NCBI RefSeq assembly: GCF_017310545.1
Contig: NZ_CP066203.1
Location: forward strand, 1,674,001-1,738,000
Direction of reading: 5' to 3'
DNA length: 64,000 nt
Source of the DNA: Methylacidimicrobium sp. B4
GTDB taxonomy: Bacteria > Verrucomicrobiota > Verrucomicrobiia > Methylacidiphilales > Methylacidiphilaceae
Both the position numbers and the translations under genes were made by a program. This document shows positions 49,768-60,039 of the stretch, in pieces. The notes beneath the pieces were generated by a model. It had not been told where the DNA came from. It saw only the letters and a program-made list of their open reading frames with translations, and did no database searches. Position 1 is the stretch's first letter. The number at the start of each line of letters is the position of its first letter.

Positions 49768-50862
49768 ATGGCGGCGTTCCGTGTCGGCATCCTCACGAGC
49801 GGCGGAGACTGCCCGGGTCTCAATGCGGTGATTCGCGCTGTGGTGGCGGCCTCCTCTCAGCGCGGATGGGAGGTGTTTGGGTTCATCGATGGCTTCGAGG
49901 GGCTCCTCTCTCCGGTTCGCTATCGAATCCTTGAGGATCCCGCGACCGTCGGGATCGCGAGCCTTGGCGGCACCATCCTGGGTACGACCAACCGCGGCCG
50001 ATTTGCAACCCGAGTAGGGCTCGGCGAGATCCACCAGATCCCCAAGGCGGTGCTCGACGAGGTCTGGGAGACGGTCGAGGGCTTGGAAATCGGGGGGCTC
50101 ATCTGCATTGGAGGGGATGGTTCGCTCACCGCCGCGCAGCAGCTCTTCGAGGCGAAGCTACCGATCGTCGGCGTTCCCAAGACGATCGATAACGACATCT
50201 CGGCGACCTCGATCTCCTTTGGCTTCTACTCGGCTGTCGAGTTTGTCACTCAGGCTCTTGACCGTTTGCGTTCGACGGCGGTCAGCCACAAGCGGGTCAT
50301 GGTCGTCGAGGTCATGGGAAGATATGCCGGTTGGATCGCGCTCTTTGGCGGCCTGGCGGGCGGTGCCGACGTGATCCTTCTGCCCGAGATCCCCTTCCAC
50401 TATGAAAAGATCGCCCACGAGGTGCGCAAGCGCGTCGCCGAAGGGGCCCTGCAGACGATGATCGTCGTCGCGGAGGGGGCTCGTCCGGATCACGGCCAGT
50501 TTGTGACGCAAGACGACGAGATGGAAAAGGGATTCCTGGGGGAAATTCGGCTGGGAGGGATTGGCCGGCATGTGGCCAAGATGGTCGAGCAGATGACCGG
50601 CCGGGAGAGCCGGGAGGTCGTGCTGGGACATCTCCAGCGCGGCGGTCCTCCCACGGCGATCGATCGGAATCTCGGAATGCTCTTCGGGGTGGCCGCCGTG
50701 CGGCTCGTGGAGCAGAAACGCTTCGGAGAGATGGTCGCCTTTCAGAACGAGCGCGTGGGATCGGTGCCGATTCTTGACGCGGTCCGCGAAAGCAAGACCG
50801 TTCCGCTCGACTGCGAGGAGATCGCCGCCGCGCGCGCGGTCGGCATCGCCTTCGGGGATTGA
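49768..50862 (+). CDS. pfkA: 6-phosphofructokinase (group III type)
   Basis: Phosphorylates fructose-6-phosphate. The 364 residues have GILTSGGDCPGLNAVIRA at the start, the nucleotide loop IGGDGSLTAA, PKTIDNDIS, EVMGRYAGWIAL and the C-terminal VVLGHLQRGGPPTAIDRNL. The residue after GGD is Gly, the ATP type, whereas PPi enzymes have Asp there; the PKTIDND Lys is the position that is Gly in E. coli PfkA. This combination is known from group III enzymes such as that of Streptomyces coelicolor, which use ATP. The phosphate donor should therefore be ATP, but this is inference. Confidence 0.93.
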   Translation: MAAFRVGILTSGGDCPGLNAVIRAVVAASSQRGWEVFGFIDGFEGLLSPVRYRILEDPATVGIASLGGTILGTTNRGRFATRVGLGEIHQIPKAVLDEVWETVEGLEIGGLICIGGDGSLTAAQQLFEAKLPIVGVPKTIDNDISATSISFGFYSAVEFVTQALDRLRSTAVSHKRVMVVEVMGRYAGWIALFGGLAGGADVILLPEIPFHYEKIAHEVRKRVAEGALQTMIVVAEGARPDHGQFVTQDDEMEKGFLGEIRLGGIGRHVAKMVEQMTGRESREVVLGHLQRGGPPTAIDRNLGMLFGVAAVRLVEQKRFGEMVAFQNERVGSVPILDAVRESKTVPLDCEEIAAARAVGIAFGD

Positions 50863-50914: not shown

Positions 50915-51484
50915 TCATTGAGGAACGGTCATCGGAGGAACCGAGCCCCAGGTATTGCTCCAGCCCTTTCCGGGATACCCCCAGACCCAATCCCTCCTTG
51001 GATAGGAGGGAGAGTCGCGCTGCCCTCCATATTGGGGCCACAAGTGGATCTCCATCGCGGCGACCAGGGGGTAGGTGTAGGGCCGATCGCCGATCTGCCC
51101 CGCCTGTATGCCAAGGGCGTGCCCCAAAACCGTGACATCACGCCCTTTGCGATAGACGGATGGATCCAAAAAGGTCGCGCTCCGTGCGAGGAAACGGCCA
51201 CCGATCCGGTCGGAGGCGATCGGTCGATCGGAGCCGTCAAGCCGCTCCTGGAGAACTTCGAGCAGTGTACCCGCCTTGAGGTTCGTTGTTCGCAGGATGG
51301 CCCCTCCGAGCATTACGATGCGGCCCTGGTAGGAAGAAGGCTTCTGCACAAGCGCGCTGAAGGAAGGTTGGTCGCGGACCCGCCGCCTCACTTCGTCAGA
51401 AAATGGGCTGCTGCAGCCGGCAAGAAGCACCGCGAGAGCGAGGCAACCGATCGTTCTCCTTTTGCCATCGAAGAGCCGATTCAT
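50915..51484 (-). CDS. Slp-family outer-membrane lipoprotein, copy 1 of 4
   Basis: A 189-residue lipoprotein with the lipobox LLAGC (lipid-bearing Cys24). The Slp-like core contains QPSFSALVQKPSSYQGRIVM, LGGAILRTTNL, EVLQERLDGSDRPIASDRIG and GRFLARSATFLDPSVYRKG, then a Gly/Trp/Pro tail (WVWGYPGKGWSNTWGS). ATG 51484 starts the signal peptide; the longer frame to 51658 has no support. Slp proteins are stationary-phase or acid-stress outer-membrane lipoproteins in enterobacteria, with unknown activity. Four related genes lie in tandem here. Confidence 0.85.
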   Translation of the reverse strand: MNRLFDGKRRTIGCLALAVLLAGCSSPFSDEVRRRVRDQPSFSALVQKPSSYQGRIVMLGGAILRTTNLKAGTLLEVLQERLDGSDRPIASDRIGGRFLARSATFLDPSVYRKGRDVTVLGHALGIQAGQIGDRPYTYPLVAAMEIHLWPQYGGQRDSPSYPRRDWVWGYPGKGWSNTWGSVPPMTVPQ

Positions 51485-51537
51485 CAACCCCGTGCCTCTT
51501 CCAACCCCCGCGAACGCCGCTCCCTTCGGGCCACCCT

Positions 51538-52098
51538 TTACCAGAAGGTCAGCGGCGGCATCAAGGGCCAGCCCATGCCCCAATCCATCCCGGGATAGCC
51601 CCAGCCCCACTCGACGCGTGGATCGTTCCAGTGGTCGTCCACCACGTGCTCCCGCCACAGATGGATGGACCTCGCTGCAATCAGGGGGTAGGTGTAGCGC
51701 CTCTCCCCGATTCGCCCTGGCTGGGGCCCGACGACCCGTCCGACGATCGTGATCTCGCGGCCCTTGCCATAGACCTTGAGGTCGAGAAGGGTCGAGGTTC
51801 CCGCCACGAAGCGGCCTCCGGTTCGATCGGAGGCGATCGGCCGGTCGTAGGCATTGAGCGGCTTCTCGAGCACTTCCAGGTAGGTGCCGCCCTTGCGATG
51901 CTTGGCATAGAGGATGGTTCCGCCGACCATCACCGTGCGACCCCGGTAGGCGGAAGGATTGCCTCGAATCGTCGCGAAGGAGGGTTGATTCTGGACCTGC
52001 TGCTGGACCTCGTTGGGAAATGGGCTGCAGCTAACGGCGACCAGAGCGAACAGCGGGAGAAGATGCCGCCCCAGCCGCCTCCAGAAGAGCGTGTTCAT
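51538..52098 (-). CDS. Slp-family outer-membrane lipoprotein, copy 2 of 4
   Basis: A 186-residue paralogue of its neighbours. The signal peptide ends in the lipobox VAVSC. The core repeats the family order QPSFATIRGNPSAYRGRTVM, VGGTILYAKHRKGG, DRPIASDRTGGRFVAG and LDLKVYGKGREITIVGRV, and the C-terminal tail is Trp/Gly/Met-rich (WGWGYPGMDWGMGWPLM). ATG 52098 with AAGGA 11 bases upstream is chosen over the ATG at 52155. The copies are clearly diverged in sequence. Confidence 0.85.
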   Translation of the reverse strand: MNTLFWRRLGRHLLPLFALVAVSCSPFPNEVQQQVQNQPSFATIRGNPSAYRGRTVMVGGTILYAKHRKGGTYLEVLEKPLNAYDRPIASDRTGGRFVAGTSTLLDLKVYGKGREITIVGRVVGPQPGRIGERRYTYPLIAARSIHLWREHVVDDHWNDPRVEWGWGYPGMDWGMGWPLMPPLTFW

Positions 52099-52246
52099 CG
52101 CTTTCGATCCTTCCCCGAGAGGATTTGGATCGGCACGAGGAGCCAGCTTCGGCATTCAGGAATGTGCCACTACGGAATTTAGCCGCCGATTCGAGCCGGT
52201 GCAAGCGCGCGCATGGGAGAGGGCGGTGCCAGCCTCAAGGGGACTG

Positions 52247-52804
52247 CTACCACCACCAAGGGCCAAAGCCCCACCCCATGCCCAATCCCATCCCCGGATA
52301 GCCCCAGCCCCAGCCCATGCCGGGATAGCCCCAGTAGGAGTCGGCGGCCGTGTATTGCGGCCACAAGTGGATATGGGTCGCGGCGACCACGGGATAGGTG
52401 TAGGGCTTTTCGCCGATCACCCCCGGCTGGGGCGCAGCGAGGCGTCCGACGACCGTGACATCGCGTCCCTTGCTGTAGACCGACGGGTCGAGAAAGGTCG
52501 AGGTCCGGACAAGGAAGCGACCACCGATCTTATCCGAGTCGATCGGTTGATCAGAGCTATCGAGCCTTTCCTGGAGCACTTCGATTAGCGTGACGTCCTT
52601 GAGGTTCTTCGTTTGGGCGATCGTCCCCCCGAGCATGACCATGCGACCTCGGAAGGCGGAAGGGTTCTGCCGAATCGCGGCAAAGGACGGCTGACCCTTC
52701 ACCTGCTGCTTTACTTCGCTTGAGAATGGGCTGCAGCTGGACAGAAGCGTCGCAAGAATCAGGCAAGCGAGAGCCCGCGGCCACCCCTGAAATTGCGGAG
52801 CCAT
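52247..52804 (-). CDS. Slp-family outer-membrane lipoprotein, copy 3 of 4
   Basis: A 185-residue paralogue with lipobox LLSSC. The core has QPSFAAIRQNPSAFRGRMVM, LGGTIAQTKNLKDVT, DSSDQPIDSDKIGGRFLV and STFLDPSVYSKGRDVTVVGR. The tail is the most extreme of the four: repeats of GYPGMGWGWG and GLGMGWGFGPWWW. ATG 52804 opens the signal peptide; an upstream ATG at 52855 lacks support. It is closest in sequence to copy 1. Confidence 0.85.
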   Translation of the reverse strand: MAPQFQGWPRALACLILATLLSSCSPFSSEVKQQVKGQPSFAAIRQNPSAFRGRMVMLGGTIAQTKNLKDVTLIEVLQERLDSSDQPIDSDKIGGRFLVRTSTFLDPSVYSKGRDVTVVGRLAAPQPGVIGEKPYTYPVVAATHIHLWPQYTAADSYWGYPGMGWGWGYPGMGLGMGWGFGPWWW

Positions 52805-52826
52805 ACAAGCGAATCCCTTCTGCCGC

Positions 52827-53405
52827 TCACCACATGCCGAAGCCCGGCATGCCAAAGCCCGGGAAGAAGCCCATTCCCGACCCCCACATGCCCGGCTCGT
52901 AGCCCCAATTCATCATCGCCCAGTCGTAATCTGCCCCCACGCTGCTCTCGGGCTGCCAGAGATGGATCTGAGAAATCGAGACGACAGGGTAGGAGTAGCT
53001 TCTCTTCCCGATGGTTCCCGGCTGGATGCCGCTGACACGACCGGCCACGGTGACCTCGCGGCCGCGCTTGTAAATCGAAGGATCGAGGAACTTGGGAGTC
53101 ACGGCGAGAAAGCGCCCGCCCGATTGATTGGTCGAGCGCGGGCGTTCGTCGCCTCCCAGCGGTCTTTGGACGATTTCCAGGACTGTCGCGTTCTTCTGGT
53201 TCTGGATTTGGGCGATCTTGCCGCCCAAGATCACGAGTCGGCCCCGGTAGGCGGCGGGGTCCTGGCGCAGGGCACCGAACGAAGGTTGGTCCTTGGCAGC
53301 CTCCAGGGTAGATTCGGCAAAGGGCCCGCCGCATCCGGCCAGGGTAGCAAGCAGGAGAGCCGCGAGAGTCGACCCGAGACTGAACCGCACGCGTTGACTA
53401 CTCAT
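52827..53405 (-). CDS. Slp-family outer-membrane lipoprotein, copy 4 of 4
   Basis: A 192-residue paralogue, the most diverged and the first transcribed of the array. The lipobox is TLAGC. The core has QPSFGALRQDPAAYRGRLVI, LGGKIAQIQNQKNATV, NQSGGRFLAVTPKFLDPS and YKRGREVTVAGRVSG, and the tail is Gly/Met/Phe-rich (WGSGMGFFPGFGMPGFGMW). ATG 53405 is preferred over the frame start at 53450. The promoter should lie in the 179 bases between it and tonB. Confidence 0.82.
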   Translation of the reverse strand: MSSQRVRFSLGSTLAALLLATLAGCGGPFAESTLEAAKDQPSFGALRQDPAAYRGRLVILGGKIAQIQNQKNATVLEIVQRPLGGDERPRSTNQSGGRFLAVTPKFLDPSIYKRGREVTVAGRVSGIQPGTIGKRSYSYPVVSISQIHLWQPESSVGADYDWAMMNWGYEPGMWGSGMGFFPGFGMPGFGMW

Positions 53406-53534
53406 CGCCACTGACCTATGGGCGATCGGCAGCCCCTCCGTCAAGGCCAAACCGGCTTTCCGCGAGCACGGTCGAGCTCATCCTTCCAGCGGCAAAAATG
53501 TCTTTGGCGGCAACCGGATCCATGCGAAGGTATG

Positions 53535-53565
53535 CCACTGCCAAGCGGCCGCCTGCGGGCAGTGG
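53535..53565 (+). promoter_or_regulatory. Strong hairpin just upstream of tonB
   Basis: CCACTGCC (53535-53542) and GGCAGTGG (53558-53565) are perfect inverted repeats of 8 bases with a 15-base loop. The hairpin ends 20 bases before the tonB start codon, in the gap between tonB and the divergent lipoprotein array. No T-run follows, so it could be a translation-control structure or a protein-binding site rather than a terminator. Confidence 0.4.
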
Positions 53566-53584
53566 GACAGGAAGAGATCAGGGG

Positions 53585-54232
53585 ATGGAACGGAGACGGT
53601 GGATCGGCCTTTTGGCCTCCGTGGCGCTGCATGCAGGCATCCTGCTCGGAACCGATGCCTGGGTCGTCAAACGGGCCGAGTATGGGATGGCGCTGGGAGA
53701 GAGGTCGATCGCCGTCGACCTGGTAGAAGGGGCGTCGGAACCGGAAGTGACCCCGCAACCGCTTCCGCAACCCGAACCGCCCACCAAGCCGCTTCCCGAG
53801 GAGATGGCGCAGGCGGTCGAGCGGAAGCCCGCTCCCCTGGCTGCACTGCCCAAGGAGCCGGAGAAGGCTGCGCGGAAGTCTCATTCAGTGGCCGAGCGAG
53901 GGAAGGGCGTTTGGGGAGCGGGGCGGGACGCGACGACCCTGAGGCGCGCAAGCGGCACCAGCGCCCAGCCGGACTATCTGAGCAACCCGCCCCCTCCTTA
54001 TCCCGAGGAGTGCCGTTGCCGGGGCGAGCAGGGGACGGTGGTGGTGAAGGTCCTGGTCTCTCCTCGCGGAACGGCGCAATCGGTCGCACTGAGCCGGAGC
54101 TCGGGGTTCGGCCCGCTCGATCGCGCCGCGCTCGAGGCGGTCCGGCGGTGGCGGTTTCGGGCGGCAACGATGGGAGGGCTTCCCATCGAGTCCTATGTGA
54201 TGGTTCCGATCCGCTTCGTCCTCGAGAACTAG
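53585..54232 (+). CDS. tonB: TonB family energy-transducing protein
   Basis: Transfers inner-membrane energy to outer-membrane receptors. The 215 residues show an N-terminal helix with the TonB-type His (WIGLLASVALHAGILLG), a proline-rich spacer (about 55-90) and the C-terminal TonB domain with DYLSNPPPPYPEECRCRGEQ, GTVVVKVLVSPRGTAQS and ALEAVRRWRFRAAT. The Pro-Tyr-Pro before the domain is canonical. Two cysteines in ECRC are unusual for this family. No exbB/exbD gene stands next to it, so it may work with the pair near 4.3 kb. The start ATG 53585 follows AGGGG. Confidence 0.92.
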   Translation: MERRRWIGLLASVALHAGILLGTDAWVVKRAEYGMALGERSIAVDLVEGASEPEVTPQPLPQPEPPTKPLPEEMAQAVERKPAPLAALPKEPEKAARKSHSVAERGKGVWGAGRDATTLRRASGTSAQPDYLSNPPPPYPEECRCRGEQGTVVVKVLVSPRGTAQSVALSRSSGFGPLDRAALEAVRRWRFRAATMGGLPIESYVMVPIRFVLEN

Positions 54233-54258: not shown

Positions 54259-55029
54259 TCAGATCCTGACCTGAATGTCCCGGTAGGCGGCCCAGCCGAT
54301 GAGCGTAAAGGGAACCGATTGGACGGCGAAGAAGAGCAGCAAGAGGATCAGCCGGAGCCGGGGAACGAGCTTCGGCGTCTGCGCATCAAGCTCCCGCTTG
54401 ATGTAGTTGGCCACGATCTCGATTGCCCGAGTATCCGGATAGATCGAATAGACCTGGATGTATTGCTGCACGTCCCGGGAGACCGCCTCTTGTGCCGCGC
54501 CAGTTCGGACGGAGAGGATCCAGCTCAGGAAAGGGTGCATCCGCTGGAAATTCCGAGCAGCGCCCTTCGCGTAGATCTTGGCGACGACAAACGTTGTGTT
54601 TTGGTTCGTGAGCGGGATCTTCGGGGCCCCGAGCTCATCATACCACTTGGCCGGGTCGTGGGGCTCCTGGCCGAGCTGCCAGACGGTCTTCCGAGCCGCC
54701 TGGAAGGTGCTGCTCTTCCAGGCTTGGTCGACCTGAAGCGAAGCAGCCCAAAGATTGACGAACTGCTCGCCGGCCGTCTTCGCATGGCTGAGGGCGAAAT
54801 AGAGGAGTGCGCCCAGCAAGGTGGCTGCTGCGGCGACGGCACAAAAGATGTGATGAATGGGGCTCGCGTGAAAGAGGAGATTCCAGAGCTTGGTGTAGTG
54901 GCTCGCCAGCCACCAGCAGCCGCCTGCCAGGAGAACGGCGACCGCGCAGGCGAGCACGAACTGCCCCGTTGCCTCGAGCAGGAAAAGTAGGATGCAGGAG
55001 CTGGTTACGGTGATCAGATCTCCGATCAT
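54259..55029 (-). CDS. Membrane protein of unknown function
   Basis: I do not recognise this family. The 256 residues have two hydrophobic segments near the N terminus (about 8-42), a third at about 60-80 (IFCAVAAAATLLGALLYFAL), a soluble region of about 130 residues and a final segment (LILLLLFFAVQSVPFTLIGW). The soluble part is helical, with no motif I can assign. It converges with tonB, ending 26 bases from it, and diverges from the tubulin-like gene, so a shared regulatory region with that operon is possible. Confidence 0.75.
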   Translation of the reverse strand: MIGDLITVTSSCILLFLLEATGQFVLACAVAVLLAGGCWWLASHYTKLWNLLFHASPIHHIFCAVAAAATLLGALLYFALSHAKTAGEQFVNLWAASLQVDQAWKSSTFQAARKTVWQLGQEPHDPAKWYDELGAPKIPLTNQNTTFVVAKIYAKGAARNFQRMHPFLSWILSVRTGAAQEAVSRDVQQYIQVYSIYPDTRAIEIVANYIKRELDAQTPKLVPRLRLILLLLFFAVQSVPFTLIGWAAYRDIQVRI

Positions 55030-55154
55030 AGGGAGGCCTTCGGGTTGTAAGGAGAGGGAGAGGGGCGAGTCAAGACGCAGGGTGGCCGCTCGATGCGCGC
55101 TCGACCGCTCGTGCCCCCGCGTCTTTCCAGGATAGGAGGCGCTCGCAAGGCTTC

Positions 55155-55178
55155 AGAGCAAAAGGGATTGCTTTTTTT
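55155..55178 (+). terminator. Hairpin followed by T-run, terminator or attenuator-like
   Basis: AGAGCAA (55155-55161) can pair with TTGCTTT (55168-55174) over 7 positions including one G-T pair, and seven T residues (55172-55178) follow on the plus strand. It lies about 170 bases before the tubulin-like start codon. No plus-strand gene ends here, so it could shield the operon from read-through or act as an attenuator. Confidence 0.35.
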
Positions 55179-55190
55179 CCCTGCGCGGGT

Positions 55191-55347
55191 AATCCGATTC
55201 AGGATAGCTCTCGACTGCGCGCGATTTTGCTGCAGCCGAGGAGGTTTCTGCTGATGATGCGCAGAGGGGGCAACCGGTCGGCGAAACGAAGGGCGAGGCG
55301 TGGGTCGGACGGTGTGAATCCAAGCAGGATACCAGGCGAATCGGATT
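55191..55347 (+). promoter_or_regulatory. Long-range inverted repeat framing the tubulin-like gene leader
   Basis: AATCCGATTC (55191-55200) is perfectly complementary to GAATCGGATT (55338-55347). The second arm ends one base before the start codon ATG at 55349, so pairing could mask the initiation region and control translation. Chance is not excluded for a 10-base match over 160 bases. Confidence 0.35.
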
Positions 55348-55348
55348 G

Positions 55349-58300
55349 ATGAATCCCAACCACATGATCATCGGCCTCGGCGGAACGGGAGGCAAAATCA
55401 TCCGGGCCGTCCGAAAGACCATCTTTCAGGAATTTCGAAGCTTGAGCCCGGAAGAGGTGAGCGTCGGGTACCTCTACGTCGATTCGAGCGATGAGCTGAT
55501 GCGCCTTGACGATCCGACCTGGAAGATCCTGGGGCAGAGCGTTCAGCTGGGCCCGAACAGCCAGCTTCACATTCGGTGCGCCAACCTCTCCTCCATTCTG
55601 GAAAATCTGACCAACTACCCGGGAATCCGCCCCTGGATCGGCGACCGCGCGATCTGGAACGATATCTTGGGAGGGATCGTGGGCGATGCGATCGGCGGCC
55701 AGAAACGGAGGCTCGGTCGATTCCTCTTTGCCAACCATGCGACCGAGTTTTGCGATCGGCTCACCACGCAGGTGCGCGAGCTCCAATCCGGTGGGGAGAC
55801 AAGCGTGACCTTTCACGTCTGCACTGGTCTTGCGGGAGGGACCGGAAGCGGGACGATCATCGACACGCTTTGCCAGATTCGACGCCTCTATCCCGACTCC
55901 CTGCAATATCGCATCATCGGGTATCTTCTCCTTCCCGAGGAGCATCCGAAGCCCAATTGGAACACTGGGAACTACCATGCCAACGGCTATGCGGCGCTGG
56001 CGGAGCTCAACGCGCTGAGCATCGGGAAATTCGTTCCCTGCAACATTGCGGGCAACGGCGGCAAGATGACCGATCTGCAGACGCCCTTCAACGGTGCCTA
56101 TCTCTTTACCACTCATAATGAGAATGGGCTCGCGCTCGGCGTCGACGACATTCCCAACGTGGTCGCGGACTTTCTCTATCAGAAGATCGTTACGGTCCGA
56201 AAGGTGAACTGGGCGAGCCTCGCCCGGCAGGAAAACGCGGAAAATGGAGACGGGATGCCCGAAACCATCCCGGGAACCAACAGTGGCGTCCGATCCAAAA
56301 GGTGGCTCACCTTCGGTGTGAAGAGAATCGCCGTGCCAGAGGAAGAGATCGCCGAATATCTCGCCTACCAGTTTGCCCGGCAGGCGGCCCTGCAGCTTCG
56401 CTATAACAACTGGTCGGAGACGGAGGGCTACCTGCCCAACGCCAAGAACGTCGATCTGATGAGCTACGTCACCGCCCCGGAACAGCTCGAGCGGTGGCTT
56501 CTTTCCGACGAGCACCTGATCTTGTCGGCCGCCGTCCTGGAGGCCGATGGGACGCAGGGCCGGTGGCAGCCGATCACGCGCTACTGGACGACCGTTGCCG
56601 GGGCCTTCAAGCAGGAGATCGAGGAGAGGGAGGAGGGAGCCAAATGGCTCGACAGCCTCAAGGGGAGGCTCGAGGTCCGCTTCAGCGACCAATACCGCGG
56701 TCACGGCGTGAAAGCCTTCTATCAGACCGTATCGGCCTCCGCCCGGGAGCGGGCGCGGGAGATCCGGCAGAAGCTCGAAAGAGAGCTTTTCGGCAACTGG
56801 CGCGACGGCATTCGATCCGTCCATGAGATCAGTGGCCTGGTCGGTGCCGTGATCACCTACTTACGCAGCCGTTTCGAGCGCTTCGATGACGATGTGACCA
56901 GAGCGAAGGCGCAGGAGGAGGCTCTCGCCAAGAAGCTCAAGGATCAGGAGAAGGAGTGGGTGAAGGTCGGTGTCATTTCCGACATGTTCGGGAAGCGGAA
57001 GCGGATCTTCGATGCGTGTGCGCTGACGCTCCAGGACCTCTATGCCACCCGGACGCGCATCGAAGGCTGGCAGTTCGCCAAGAAGTTTACCCCGGTCCTC
57101 ACGGAGGAGATCACCCAATTGAAAGCCGAGCTCGACCGAAGCTCGGCGATGATCTCCGAGGCGGTCAAGAGCTTCGAGGAGCAGATCGCCGAGCGTTGCG
57201 TCGACGAGGGTGGGGAGGTCGATTATCGGCAGCAGATCATCCGATTCTATGACCCGGACCTGGTCCGAACGGTGACGCGTCGGTTGACCAAGGACGCCCG
57301 AGAGCAGCTCACGCAGACGCAGCGTGTGCGCTCTGCGCTCGTCGCCATGCTGGGCGACAAGCTCGATTTCCGCACCTTCAACGAGAGAATCAACCGAACG
57401 ACCTTCCTGGACGTGCTCGAGAACCAGTGCATGGAGAATGCGAAGATCTCCCACAATAACCTCATCGAGAGCAGCAAGGAGAAGCTGATCGGTGTCAGCA
57501 TCATCGACAAGCTGCGCGACCGATACGGCGATCGGCAGGCGCTCCGGCTCTTTATCGATGGAATCGTCAAGTCCGCCGGCAACTACTTGATCTTCAACCC
57601 GGACGAGATCAAGAGATCGGCCCCCGGAATCAATCCGGGCGCGCAAATCTGTGTCTCCACCTTCACGGTGATCCTCCCCAGAGCGCCGGAAGCGGAAGAT
57701 TTCGTGAAGATGCTGCGGGAGGTCTTTTGGGAGTGCGTGCAGACGACGGCTCGGGAGTTCCTGGACGGCAGCCGGCCCAACGAGATCATCTTGACCAGCG
57801 TCACGAATCTCTTTCCGCTTCGCGTCGTCCAGCTGCTCTCCTTTCTCCGGGCTCGCTATCTTGAGCGGGTGAATGGCCCCAATCCGGCGCGGGCCCGGAT
57901 GGAGATTCATATCGAGGAGGATGGGCAAACCCTTCCGAGCCTCTTTCTCCCGAGCCGTGGGGAGCTCCAGGACCGGATTGCACCCGGTCTTCTTCTCGGT
58001 AGCGCCTTGGGGCTGGTGGCCGACCGGGAGAACGAGCGGGGTGTGAAGGAGCTGGCGATGATCGTCAAGGACGAGTTTGGGATCGAAACGCCGATCTTCC
58101 TGGAAGGATCGACGATTCCGGAGGCGCTGGCCAACCTCCCCGAACCGAAGGCCCTCGTCTTAGAAGAAACGGTGGGCAAGCATCTCACGGATCCGGAGCT
58201 GCGCCGGGAGCCGAGGCGTACCGAGCTGACCCAGAGGCTGGCTGCCATGGTCAACGAGCTCTCGCGTCAGCTCCCTCCATCGGATCCTCGGACCAAGCTC

Positions 58301-58351
58301 TTCCCGGACTGGGGGCGGCGGGCGATCAAGCTTCTCCGCGGGGAGGGATAA
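55349..58351 (+). CDS. Tubulin-like (FtsZ/tubulin superfamily) protein, large
   Basis: A 1000-residue protein whose N-terminal third looks like the bacterial tubulin-like family (Pfam Tubulin_2 type), a GTP-binding relative of FtsZ. The first glycine-rich loop is MIIGLGGTGGKIIRAV at residues 6-21. The tubulin signature loop is LAGGTGSGTIID near 160, matching the GGGTGSG of FtsZ. An FtsZ-like T7 loop is not obvious. The region of about 500-720 is strongly helical and charged (SRFERFDDDVTRAKAQEEAL), a probable coiled coil. The last 300 residues are globular and unassigned. The start ATG 55349 is used instead of TTG 55346. It heads an operon-like run of envelope proteins with similar orientation. 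Confidence 0.85.
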   Translation: MNPNHMIIGLGGTGGKIIRAVRKTIFQEFRSLSPEEVSVGYLYVDSSDELMRLDDPTWKILGQSVQLGPNSQLHIRCANLSSILENLTNYPGIRPWIGDRAIWNDILGGIVGDAIGGQKRRLGRFLFANHATEFCDRLTTQVRELQSGGETSVTFHVCTGLAGGTGSGTIIDTLCQIRRLYPDSLQYRIIGYLLLPEEHPKPNWNTGNYHANGYAALAELNALSIGKFVPCNIAGNGGKMTDLQTPFNGAYLFTTHNENGLALGVDDIPNVVADFLYQKIVTVRKVNWASLARQENAENGDGMPETIPGTNSGVRSKRWLTFGVKRIAVPEEEIAEYLAYQFARQAALQLRYNNWSETEGYLPNAKNVDLMSYVTAPEQLERWLLSDEHLILSAAVLEADGTQGRWQPITRYWTTVAGAFKQEIEEREEGAKWLDSLKGRLEVRFSDQYRGHGVKAFYQTVSASARERAREIRQKLERELFGNWRDGIRSVHEISGLVGAVITYLRSRFERFDDDVTRAKAQEEALAKKLKDQEKEWVKVGVISDMFGKRKRIFDACALTLQDLYATRTRIEGWQFAKKFTPVLTEEITQLKAELDRSSAMISEAVKSFEEQIAERCVDEGGEVDYRQQIIRFYDPDLVRTVTRRLTKDAREQLTQTQRVRSALVAMLGDKLDFRTFNERINRTTFLDVLENQCMENAKISHNNLIESSKEKLIGVSIIDKLRDRYGDRQALRLFIDGIVKSAGNYLIFNPDEIKRSAPGINPGAQICVSTFTVILPRAPEAEDFVKMLREVFWECVQTTAREFLDGSRPNEIILTSVTNLFPLRVVQLLSFLRARYLERVNGPNPARARMEIHIEEDGQTLPSLFLPSRGELQDRIAPGLLLGSALGLVADRENERGVKELAMIVKDEFGIETPIFLEGSTIPEALANLPEPKALVLEETVGKHLTDPELRREPRRTELTQRLAAMVNELSRQLPPSDPRTKLFPDWGRRAIKLLRGEG

Positions 58352-58410
58352 CGCCGTGCCATGCGAGCCTGGAGGGCTGCTGCGCCGGGCGGGCAGCCGC
58401 AGGAGAAAGC

Positions 58411-60039
58411 TTGGGAGATATGCCGGGTAGACGAGGCCTTTGTCGGAATTACGGAAACTGTCCGACGCGCGCCGATACGCGCGAGGTCATCGAAGTTCCC
58501 GAAGGCAAGGAGTTCGTCTGCCCGGACTGCGGGAGTCCTCTCGTTCCGGAAGAAGAGGCGATGCACCGTCCGAGGAGGAGGAAAAGGCCTGGAGCCGTGC
58601 TCTTCCTGCTCCTCCCCCTGTTGGTGGTGGGAGGTACCGTGCTCTGGCTTTTTCTTCGCGGGCATCCGCAACCCGCGCCCACTCCGGCGTCCCAATCCCC
58701 TCCCGCGTCCCGGGAGGTCCCTCCCGCCAACGAGCGGACGCTCTTTACGATTTCGGGCTCGCGCATCTTGGGGGAGAAGCTTGTTCCTGGTCTGGTAAAG
58801 GCTTTCTTCTCGGACGAGCTGCGCGCAGAGGCGGTTGCCGTGCGGCGGGAGAAAGACGGACGGTCTCTTGCGATCGTGGGCAAGGTGCCCAACGGGGAGG
58901 AAGCGATTGCGGTCCGGATCGTCTGCTCGAGCACTTCCGATGGATGGAGAGATCTGGCGGGCGATGGGGCGCAGATCGCGATGGCCTTCCGCAAGATTAC
59001 TTCGGAGGAGGCGGCGCCCTTCGGCAAGACGGTCAACCTCACGGCTCCGGATTCCGAGCATGTGATCGGGGTCAGCGGTGTCGTGGCCGTCGTCTCGGCC
59101 GCCAATCCACTGTCGAAGCTCTCTTTGGCCGAGCTGCGCAGGGTCTTCGGAGGATCGGTCGCAGACGGCCAGGCGGTGGGCTTCCCTCCGGGGAAAATCG
59201 TCCTCTACGCCTCTCCGGTCGCCTCGGGGATCTGGCAGCTCTTTGCCCAGCACGTGCTGGAGGGTTCGTCTGGGTCAGCCGACATCGTTCGCCTGGAAAA
59301 CGGAGCGGAGATCTCCTCCCGAGTCGCTGCCGACGCGCACGCCCTGGGGATCGTCGACCTGCCTCACGTCGGAAGTTGCAAGGCCTTGGCCCTTTATGAG
59401 AAGGGAACCCTGCCTCTTGCCCCGACTTTCGCATCCCTCGAGTCGGAGTCCTACCTCCTTTCGACCCGGCTCTACCTCTACACCAAGGGGAGCGGACGGA
59501 ATCCCGATGTCGATGCCTTCATTCAATTCGTTCTCTCCGATCGAGGCCAGCAGGGGGTGCAGGAGGCGGGGTTCGTTGGGGCGGCGACGAAGTCCCCGAA
59601 AGGGGCCGAGTCCTTGATTCAACCGGAGATGGCAATCCCGCGCGATGCTCCCACGGCCTACCGGCACCTCGTCCAAGGGGGCAACCGGGTCGCCTTCGAC
59701 GTCCGCTTTCGGACGGGGAGCGCCGAGCTGGACAACAAGGCGCTCGTCGACATCCGGCGGCTGGCGAAGCTGATGGGTGAAAGGGAAGAGAAGAGCCAAG
59801 CGGTTCTCCTGATCGGCTTTACGGACAACGTGGGGGATCGGGCCTACAACCTGCGCCTTTCGGTTGAGCGGGCGCAGAGCGTCGGGCAGGCGCTTCGCGT
59901 CCTGGGCATCCCCGTTGCGGCAACCGCAGGAGAGGGAGACCAGATGCCCGTGGCCTCAAACGACTCTCCGGAAGGTCGGGAGAAGAATCGTCGCGTCGAG
60001 CTTTGGATCGTTCGGGGGAAGGCTTCCGAGAAGCCTTGA
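58411..60039 (+). CDS. Zinc-ribbon, membrane, PstS-like and OmpA fusion protein
   Basis: A modular envelope protein of 542 residues. It has a cytosolic Cys4 ribbon (Cys11, 17, 37, 40; pattern C-x5-C-x19-C-x2-C), a membrane helix at about 61-83 and a proline-rich linker. A PstS-like substrate-binding domain follows at about 111-400 (TLFTISGSRILGEKLVPGLV, FRKITSEEAAPFG, VSGVVAVVSAANPLSKLSL). The C-terminal OmpA-like peptidoglycan-binding domain is at about 425-535 (FDVRFRTGSAELDNKALVDI, GFTDNVGDRAYNLRLS). The binding-protein part is probably a fixed sensor rather than a transporter partner, since no permease is near. Start TTG 58411 has AGGAG 5 bases upstream; ATG 58420 is the alternative. Confidence 0.85.
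   Translation: MGDMPGRRGLCRNYGNCPTRADTREVIEVPEGKEFVCPDCGSPLVPEEEAMHRPRRRKRPGAVLFLLLPLLVVGGTVLWLFLRGHPQPAPTPASQSPPASREVPPANERTLFTISGSRILGEKLVPGLVKAFFSDELRAEAVAVRREKDGRSLAIVGKVPNGEEAIAVRIVCSSTSDGWRDLAGDGAQIAMAFRKITSEEAAPFGKTVNLTAPDSEHVIGVSGVVAVVSAANPLSKLSLAELRRVFGGSVADGQAVGFPPGKIVLYASPVASGIWQLFAQHVLEGSSGSADIVRLENGAEISSRVAADAHALGIVDLPHVGSCKALALYEKGTLPLAPTFASLESESYLLSTRLYLYTKGSGRNPDVDAFIQFVLSDRGQQGVQEAGFVGAATKSPKGAESLIQPEMAIPRDAPTAYRHLVQGGNRVAFDVRFRTGSAELDNKALVDIRRLAKLMGEREEKSQAVLLIGFTDNVGDRAYNLRLSVERAQSVGQALRVLGIPVAATAGEGDQMPVASNDSPEGREKNRRVELWIVRGKASEKP

Follow-up and report, generated by a model that had tools for sequence, protein, structure and literature searches.

A 64,000-nucleotide stretch of the Methylacidimicrobium sp. 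B4 genome (contig NZ_CP066203.1, positions 1,674,001 to 1,738,000; hereafter the window) contains four consecutive genes of the Slp family. We interpret these genes, with a probability of roughly 0.5, as an old and stable tandem array encoding non-interchangeable outer-membrane lipoproteins, most likely involved in a barrier against acid and organic acids. The features of the array and its surroundings are listed in Table 1.

Table 1. The slp array, its neighbours and the single slp copies (window positions; for copies A to C, positions in the source genome)
Feature	Position	Strand	Remarks
pfkA	49768-50862	+	convergent with slp array; named by eye
slp c1	50915..51484	-	last gene of array; lipobox LAGC-SS; tail end PPMTVPQ; PF03843 143.3 bits
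slp c2	51538..52098	-	lipobox AVSC-SP; tail end MPPLTFW; PF03843 132.8 bits
slp c3	52247..52804	-	lipobox LSSC-SP; tail YWGYPGMGWGWGYPGMGLGMGWGFGPWWW; PF03843 154.9 bits
slp c4	52827..53405	-	first gene of array; lipobox LAGC-GG; tail end GMPGFGMW; PF03843 149.4 bits
intergenic region, slp array (-) / tonB (+)	53406..53584	.	5-genome alignment
tonB	53585..54232	+	divergent from slp array; TonB_C PF03544 78.7 bits
tubulin-like gene (PF13809)	55346-58351
single slp copy A	near 964.5 kb
single slp copy B	near 2299.4 kb
single slp copy C	near 1877.3 kb

Identification of the slp array

All four genes matched the Slp family (PF03843) well above its cut-off of 22.5 bits, with E-values ranging from 9e-39 to 1e-45, and their products all present a lipobox Cys by motif, the box of c2 being a loose match. 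The first-pass annotation, which had placed four consecutive Slp-type lipoproteins on the minus strand at 50915-53405, was hence borne out in both family and coordinates. With the related model TIGR00752 (cut-off 88.45), c1, c3 and c4 scored above the threshold and c2 slightly below it (84.6). The core motifs that the same annotation had listed as common to the four proteins stood only in part. The QPSF motif is invariant in all of them, but RPIASD is found only in c1 and c2 and VTV.GR only in c3 and c4, while FLDPSVY is present in c1 and c3, with variants in c4 (FLDPSIY) and c2 (LLDLKVY).

Gene starts were taken as the ATG codons that place the lipobox Cys at residue 24-25. The residue following this Cys is Ser in three of the proteins and Gly in the fourth, never Asp, a pattern that fits the outer-membrane sorting rule of E. 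coli, which would apply to Verrucomicrobia by analogy. From the chosen starts, the genes are separated by 22 (c4-c3), 148 (c3-c2) and 53 (c2-c1) bases, and a single c4-c3-c2-c1 transcript is therefore plausible. The array also lies where it had been described, beside tonB, the next gene upstream, and near the gene for a tubulin-like protein. The region beyond tonB (54259-60039) encodes a 256-residue protein without Pfam match, the tubulin-like GTPase and a phosphate-binding-like/OmpA protein, and its gene order beside tonB is kept in the related Methylacidimicrobium loci that extend that far.

Distribution and history of the array

The source genome, a single contig of 2,371,269 bases, encodes seven Slp proteins, corresponding to the array and three single copies. 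Among 40 genomes sampled from the genus, family and order, the source genome included, Slp was detected in every one of the 13 members of the acidophile family but in no genome among the 27 from the rest of the order. When 288 genomes were drawn from across the phylum, eight contained Slp, seven of them from the same family and one from elsewhere (G195).

For the relatives, the first-pass annotation had named a single ancestral copy in all of them without lipoprotein processing as one outcome that would speak against its reading; instead, the array was found in all seven genus members, with the c4-c3-c2 order kept in each and with c4 orthologues throughout, one of them cut by a contig end. The last gene, c1, is intact in four of the seven, presents an internal TAG codon in G003 and is absent from G004 and G005, and it is hence dispensable. 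The TAG codon interrupts c1 in frame in a draft genome (L043:2656-3480) and may denote either a broken gene or an assembly error. In G002, approximately 2 kb of additional DNA between c3 and c2 splits the array at that point (L042:1381-3401).

A tree of the Slp cores, inferred without tails from 73 rows and 139 columns, placed every copy in a clade of its own (c1, 99/95; c2, 100/99; c3, weakly, 87/86; c4, 100/99) and c1, c2 and c3 jointly in one clade (98/97), although with so few columns many of its forks are weak. Partial rows (G003_L043_2656, 2950 and 4556, and G009_L078) were left out of both the tree and the count of C-terminal residues given below, as was a second, weak Slp match in G008. 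Given the joint clade of c1, c2 and c3, these genes most likely derive from duplication within this lineage. In Methylacidiphilum, the equivalent position beside tonB is occupied by a single counterpart or by two.

Copy-specific conservation of the tails

The tails of the four proteins (157 residues) had been described as rich in Trp, Gly and Met, and their composition agrees with this description. They contain 13.4% Trp, 20.4% Gly, 8.3% Met and 12.7% Pro, versus 1.4, 9.2, 1.9 and 6.1%, respectively, in a set of 32 crude gene calls from the window. The reported strong divergence of the tails among the four copies was likewise evident in a mean identity of 39% for paralogues within a genome (31 pairs, range 0.22-0.53), versus 81% between orthologues (63 pairs, range 0.53-1.00), the pairs in neither set being independent. 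For the core, the corresponding values are 53% and 79%. Tails are hence similar across species and distinct across copies, which indicates that they are copy-specific and have been kept.

Comparison of orthologues with G000 yielded tail dN/dS values of 0.03-0.41, denoting purifying selection in 20 of 20 comparisons, and core values of 0.05-0.46; the tail dS estimates behind these ratios are rough, coming from Trp- and Met-rich stretches with few synonymous sites. Tail dN was lower than core dN in 12 of the 20 comparisons, equal in one and higher in seven. In c1, tail identity to the G002 and G006 orthologues reached 92 and 88%, with core identities of 60 and 65%. Gaps were excluded from the tail identity and dN/dS figures against G000, and two genes of G003, c1 (stop) and c4 (contig end), were left out of the dN/dS analysis. 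Overall, these sequence patterns argue for the four array copies being stable, specialised paralogues.

A further feature of the tails is an aromatic last residue. Of the 69 Slp rows that are complete in the 13 genomes of the family, 64 close with Trp, Tyr or Phe, rows within an Slp group not being independent; the same holds for 3 of the 32 crude gene calls made in the window. The exceptions are four c1 rows, which end in Gln, and one G008 row, which ends in Pro, so that c1 is the only array copy without a C-terminal aromatic residue. Beyond the family, the Slp of Methylomonas ends in Trp, and E. coli Slp and YeaY and the Slp proteins of A. caldus and Hafnia have non-aromatic ends. Outer-membrane barrel proteins also feature aromatic last residues, and a link between both kinds of ends is speculation on our part.

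Tails of other kinds occur elsewhere in the family. Copy A, present as a single copy (L053, L056, L059, L064, L065, L068), has no clear lipobox Cys and a tail of repeated YGPMGM-like units that vary in number between species. In an Slp relative from five Methylacidiphilum genomes (L074, L075, L079, L083, L087), the tail is reduced to four residues after the core, and four of the five proteins also lack a lipobox by motif.

Predicted fold of the Slp core

Two AlphaFold2 models were obtained from 18-row alignments, one led by c3 and one by c4. Both present five strands, predicted with pLDDT values mostly above 90 and in line with the five-stranded barrel of an OB-fold, followed by a tail with pLDDT below 50. 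We hence predict with confidence that the Slp core is OB-fold-like and that the tail is unstructured. Foldseek searches with the c3 model returned OB-fold proteins at the top, with a best E-value of 2.4e-4, ten matches at or below 0.001 and modest TM-scores. VIA-align ranked AspRS/AsnRS and OBody chains first for the same model (Z up to 10.5; rmsd 2.8 over 95 residues). The best solved matches of the c3 model comprised domains of AspRS/AsnRS, SSB, RPA and MCM, chains that we take to be OB-folds; sequence searches for solved relatives of the array proteins returned none up to an E-value of 1. An OB-like fold in common does not indicate any function.

Recurrent association of slp with tonB

The tonB gene is divergent from the array in all ten genomes of two genera in which this could be assessed (5/5 Methylacidimicrobium and 5/5 Methylacidiphilum), the contigs of G002 and G003 ending short of tonB. 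In the two Methylacidiphilum genomes inspected gene by gene (G007 and G012), an ORF of 128-129 residues lies between slp and tonB. A second pairing involves copy B (group B), which is divergent from a second tonB gene in five of six loci of genus members; in the remaining locus (G005), a distance of approximately 2.2 kb, with other DNA in between, separates the two genes. The TonB protein of the array is 29% identical to that of copy B and 37% identical to two unlinked TonB proteins, and the slp-tonB pairs are therefore not simple duplicates of each other.

The source genome contains six TonB_C matches, the weakest barely above the cut-off, and two of them adjoin slp. Under random placement of the four slp loci, the probability of at least two lying near a TonB_C match is 0.0003, and that of a further pair given the first is 0.02. 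This placement test was devised after the first pair had been noticed, and the tonB neighbourhood was pursued only from then on; the association is hence a lead and not proof. In an unrelated acidophile, Acidithiobacillus caldus, a plasmid-borne slp is divergent from exbB-exbD (L095:1043-3408), a similar neighbour. In G000, copy B and the tonB paired with it (L111:2650-7832) have as neighbours genes for ZnuA, an ABC ATPase, an ABC-3 permease and a Fe/Mn superoxide dismutase, which is a metal-uptake setting.

One possibility is that the Slp proteins of these bacteria are outer-membrane accessories of the TonB system, working with TonB or with TonB-dependent receptors, and that they are encoded beside tonB for this reason; they might, for instance, dock the tip of TonB or keep a receptor in place. 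The recurrent pairing in two genera, the copy B pair, which is no simple duplicate of the array pair, the placement statistics and the A. caldus locus speak in favour of this possibility. Against it, no TonB was found within about 2 kb of copies A and C of the source genome or of the other Methylacidiphilum slp loci examined, nor beside E. coli slp and yeaY or, in the stretch examined, Methylomonas slp. Divergent neighbours, moreover, may have only their promoter region in common, and the statistical test followed the sighting of the first pair. On balance, we regard an accessory role as rather unlikely. A more specific version, in which acidophile Slps are outer-membrane partners of TonB-ExbBD, with the aromatic tail as the point of contact and the different copies serving different TonBs or receptors, appears distinctly unlikely. 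Any reading in terms of an Slp-TonB interaction is based on gene neighbourhood, and we consider the candidate link to the TonB system the least expected lead of the analysis.

Within the gap between slp and tonB, a block around CGTCAAGGCCAAA (plus strand) is nearly invariant in the five aligned genomes. A consensus scan returned no promoter, with 0.3 expected by chance, and terminator-like sites provided no signal (3 versus 2.6 expected). By eye, a TTGACG element can be seen on the minus strand (53444-53416), spaced 17 bases from CCATAG, a weak match that we do not rely on.

Alternative roles considered for the tails

The composition of the tails also raises the possibility that they bind copper or another soft metal, in the service of methane monooxygenase or of detoxification. 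Each of the c2, c3 and c4 tails contains 3-6 Met and 4-7 Trp residues, largely kept between species, and the genes next to the second tonB-slp pair, including those for ZnuA, ABC-3 and superoxide dismutase, would suit such a role. The four tails contain no Cys, however, and His in c2 only, and Met is missing from the Tyr/Trp/Gly/Pro tails of E. coli Slp and of the five main counterparts in Methylacidiphilum. The feature retained is hence the aromatic and Gly content and not Met, making metal binding very unlikely.

The surface variation proposed in the first-pass annotation, whereby copies would diversify and recombine to alter their exposed tails, could draw on the divergence among paralogues and on small indels between species in the c4 tails (at most 11 gap columns), but it was rejected as extremely improbable, given that the tails are conserved across species under purifying selection and that the core tree keeps the four copies in separate clades (c3 weakly), which implies no recent exchange of cores.

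Relation to known Slp systems

According to the text of the relevant studies, M. infernorum has six Slp paralogues (PMC2474590), and acidophilic Verrucomicrobia carry five to seven slp copies, with none in neutrophilic ones (PMC9543262). The latter study also describes rampant duplication, deems a horizontal origin likely and proposes an acid barrier. This expansion concerns the same family and the same bacteria as the array. Both it and its acid reading being in print (PMC2474590, PMC9543262), the core finding, multiple Slp copies in acidophilic methanotrophs read as acid defence, is already known. Term searches and the passages covered in these papers showed no mention of a tandem array, copy-specific conserved tails, an OB-fold or a tonB pairing. 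The text of PMC9543262 also states that no Slp mechanism has been proven in any organism and places slp upstream of aguAB; copy C, divergent from a CN-hydrolase and PAD_porph gene, fits this arrangement.

Like the array proteins, E. coli Slp and YeaY are PF03843 lipoproteins; both possess a lipobox, and their tails are rich in Trp, Tyr, Gly and Pro. In contrast to the array, they are encoded by separate single genes without an adjacent tonB, and their tails end in Lys or Glu. Within the acid fitness island, the E. coli slp gene is a neighbour of hdeAB and gadE, and its product has also been linked to adherence (PMC6561548, PMC13193606). Acidihalobacter, as described in the text of PMC9062700, likewise presents adjacent slp copies in an acidophile, but these are two genes (slp-1 and slp-2) that the paper finds far apart on the Slp tree and beside a cardiolipin synthase gene, whereas c1-c3 form one clade here.

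An abundant lipoprotein of M. fumariolicum, WP_009060351, was considered as an Slp and set aside, having 139 residues and a different described domain (PMC10260701, in the main text of which the term Slp is missing). Slp is mentioned in passing in the text of PMC6119699 and PMC8886135 and is not named in the main text of PMC6688271. Literature searches combining Slp with OB-fold, Slp with TonB and ExbB, or using the term "Slp family lipoprotein", returned nothing relevant.

A proposed role in the acid barrier of the envelope

The preferred reading, that of stable paralogues of the acid envelope, can be laid out as follows. Each copy would carry a lipoprotein signal, undergo acylation at the lipobox Cys and then probably be sorted to the outer membrane. 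There, a small OB-fold-like domain would sit at the membrane, and an unstructured tail of 37-42 residues, rich in Trp, Gly, Pro and Met or Tyr, may touch either the interface with lipid or a further protein of the envelope. As each copy retains its own tail, it probably has its own partner or site, and the four copies would not be interchangeable. Their most likely role would be to help the envelope keep out acid and organic acids, in line with proposals made for Slp in other settings, and the array may be co-expressed with the divergent tonB.

The acid role is the default interpretation, and a putative one. It is based on which genomes carry slp genes, and Slp is also present in Methylomonas, Aeromonas and Hafnia, which are not, to our knowledge, acidophiles. 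The acid-tolerance layer suggested in the first-pass annotation is nevertheless right in kind, in view of the 13/13 versus 0/27 distribution, and was already in print in the text of PMC2474590 and PMC9543262. A literature search for expression or mutant data on these slp genes found none.

The lipoprotein Slp occurs widely and has been associated with survival in acid, yet is without a known mechanism; the array provides four natural variants of it in one genome, with tails fixed by selection. The copy-specific conserved tails and the repeated pairing with tonB are the parts of this analysis worth testing, and the recurrence of tonB or exbBD as a neighbour of slp is itself testable. Should the TonB link hold, it would place Slp in a molecular context, and the more specific partner reading would, if true, provide the orphan Slp family with a first molecular role; otherwise, the array would stay a neat instance of an expansion already in print.
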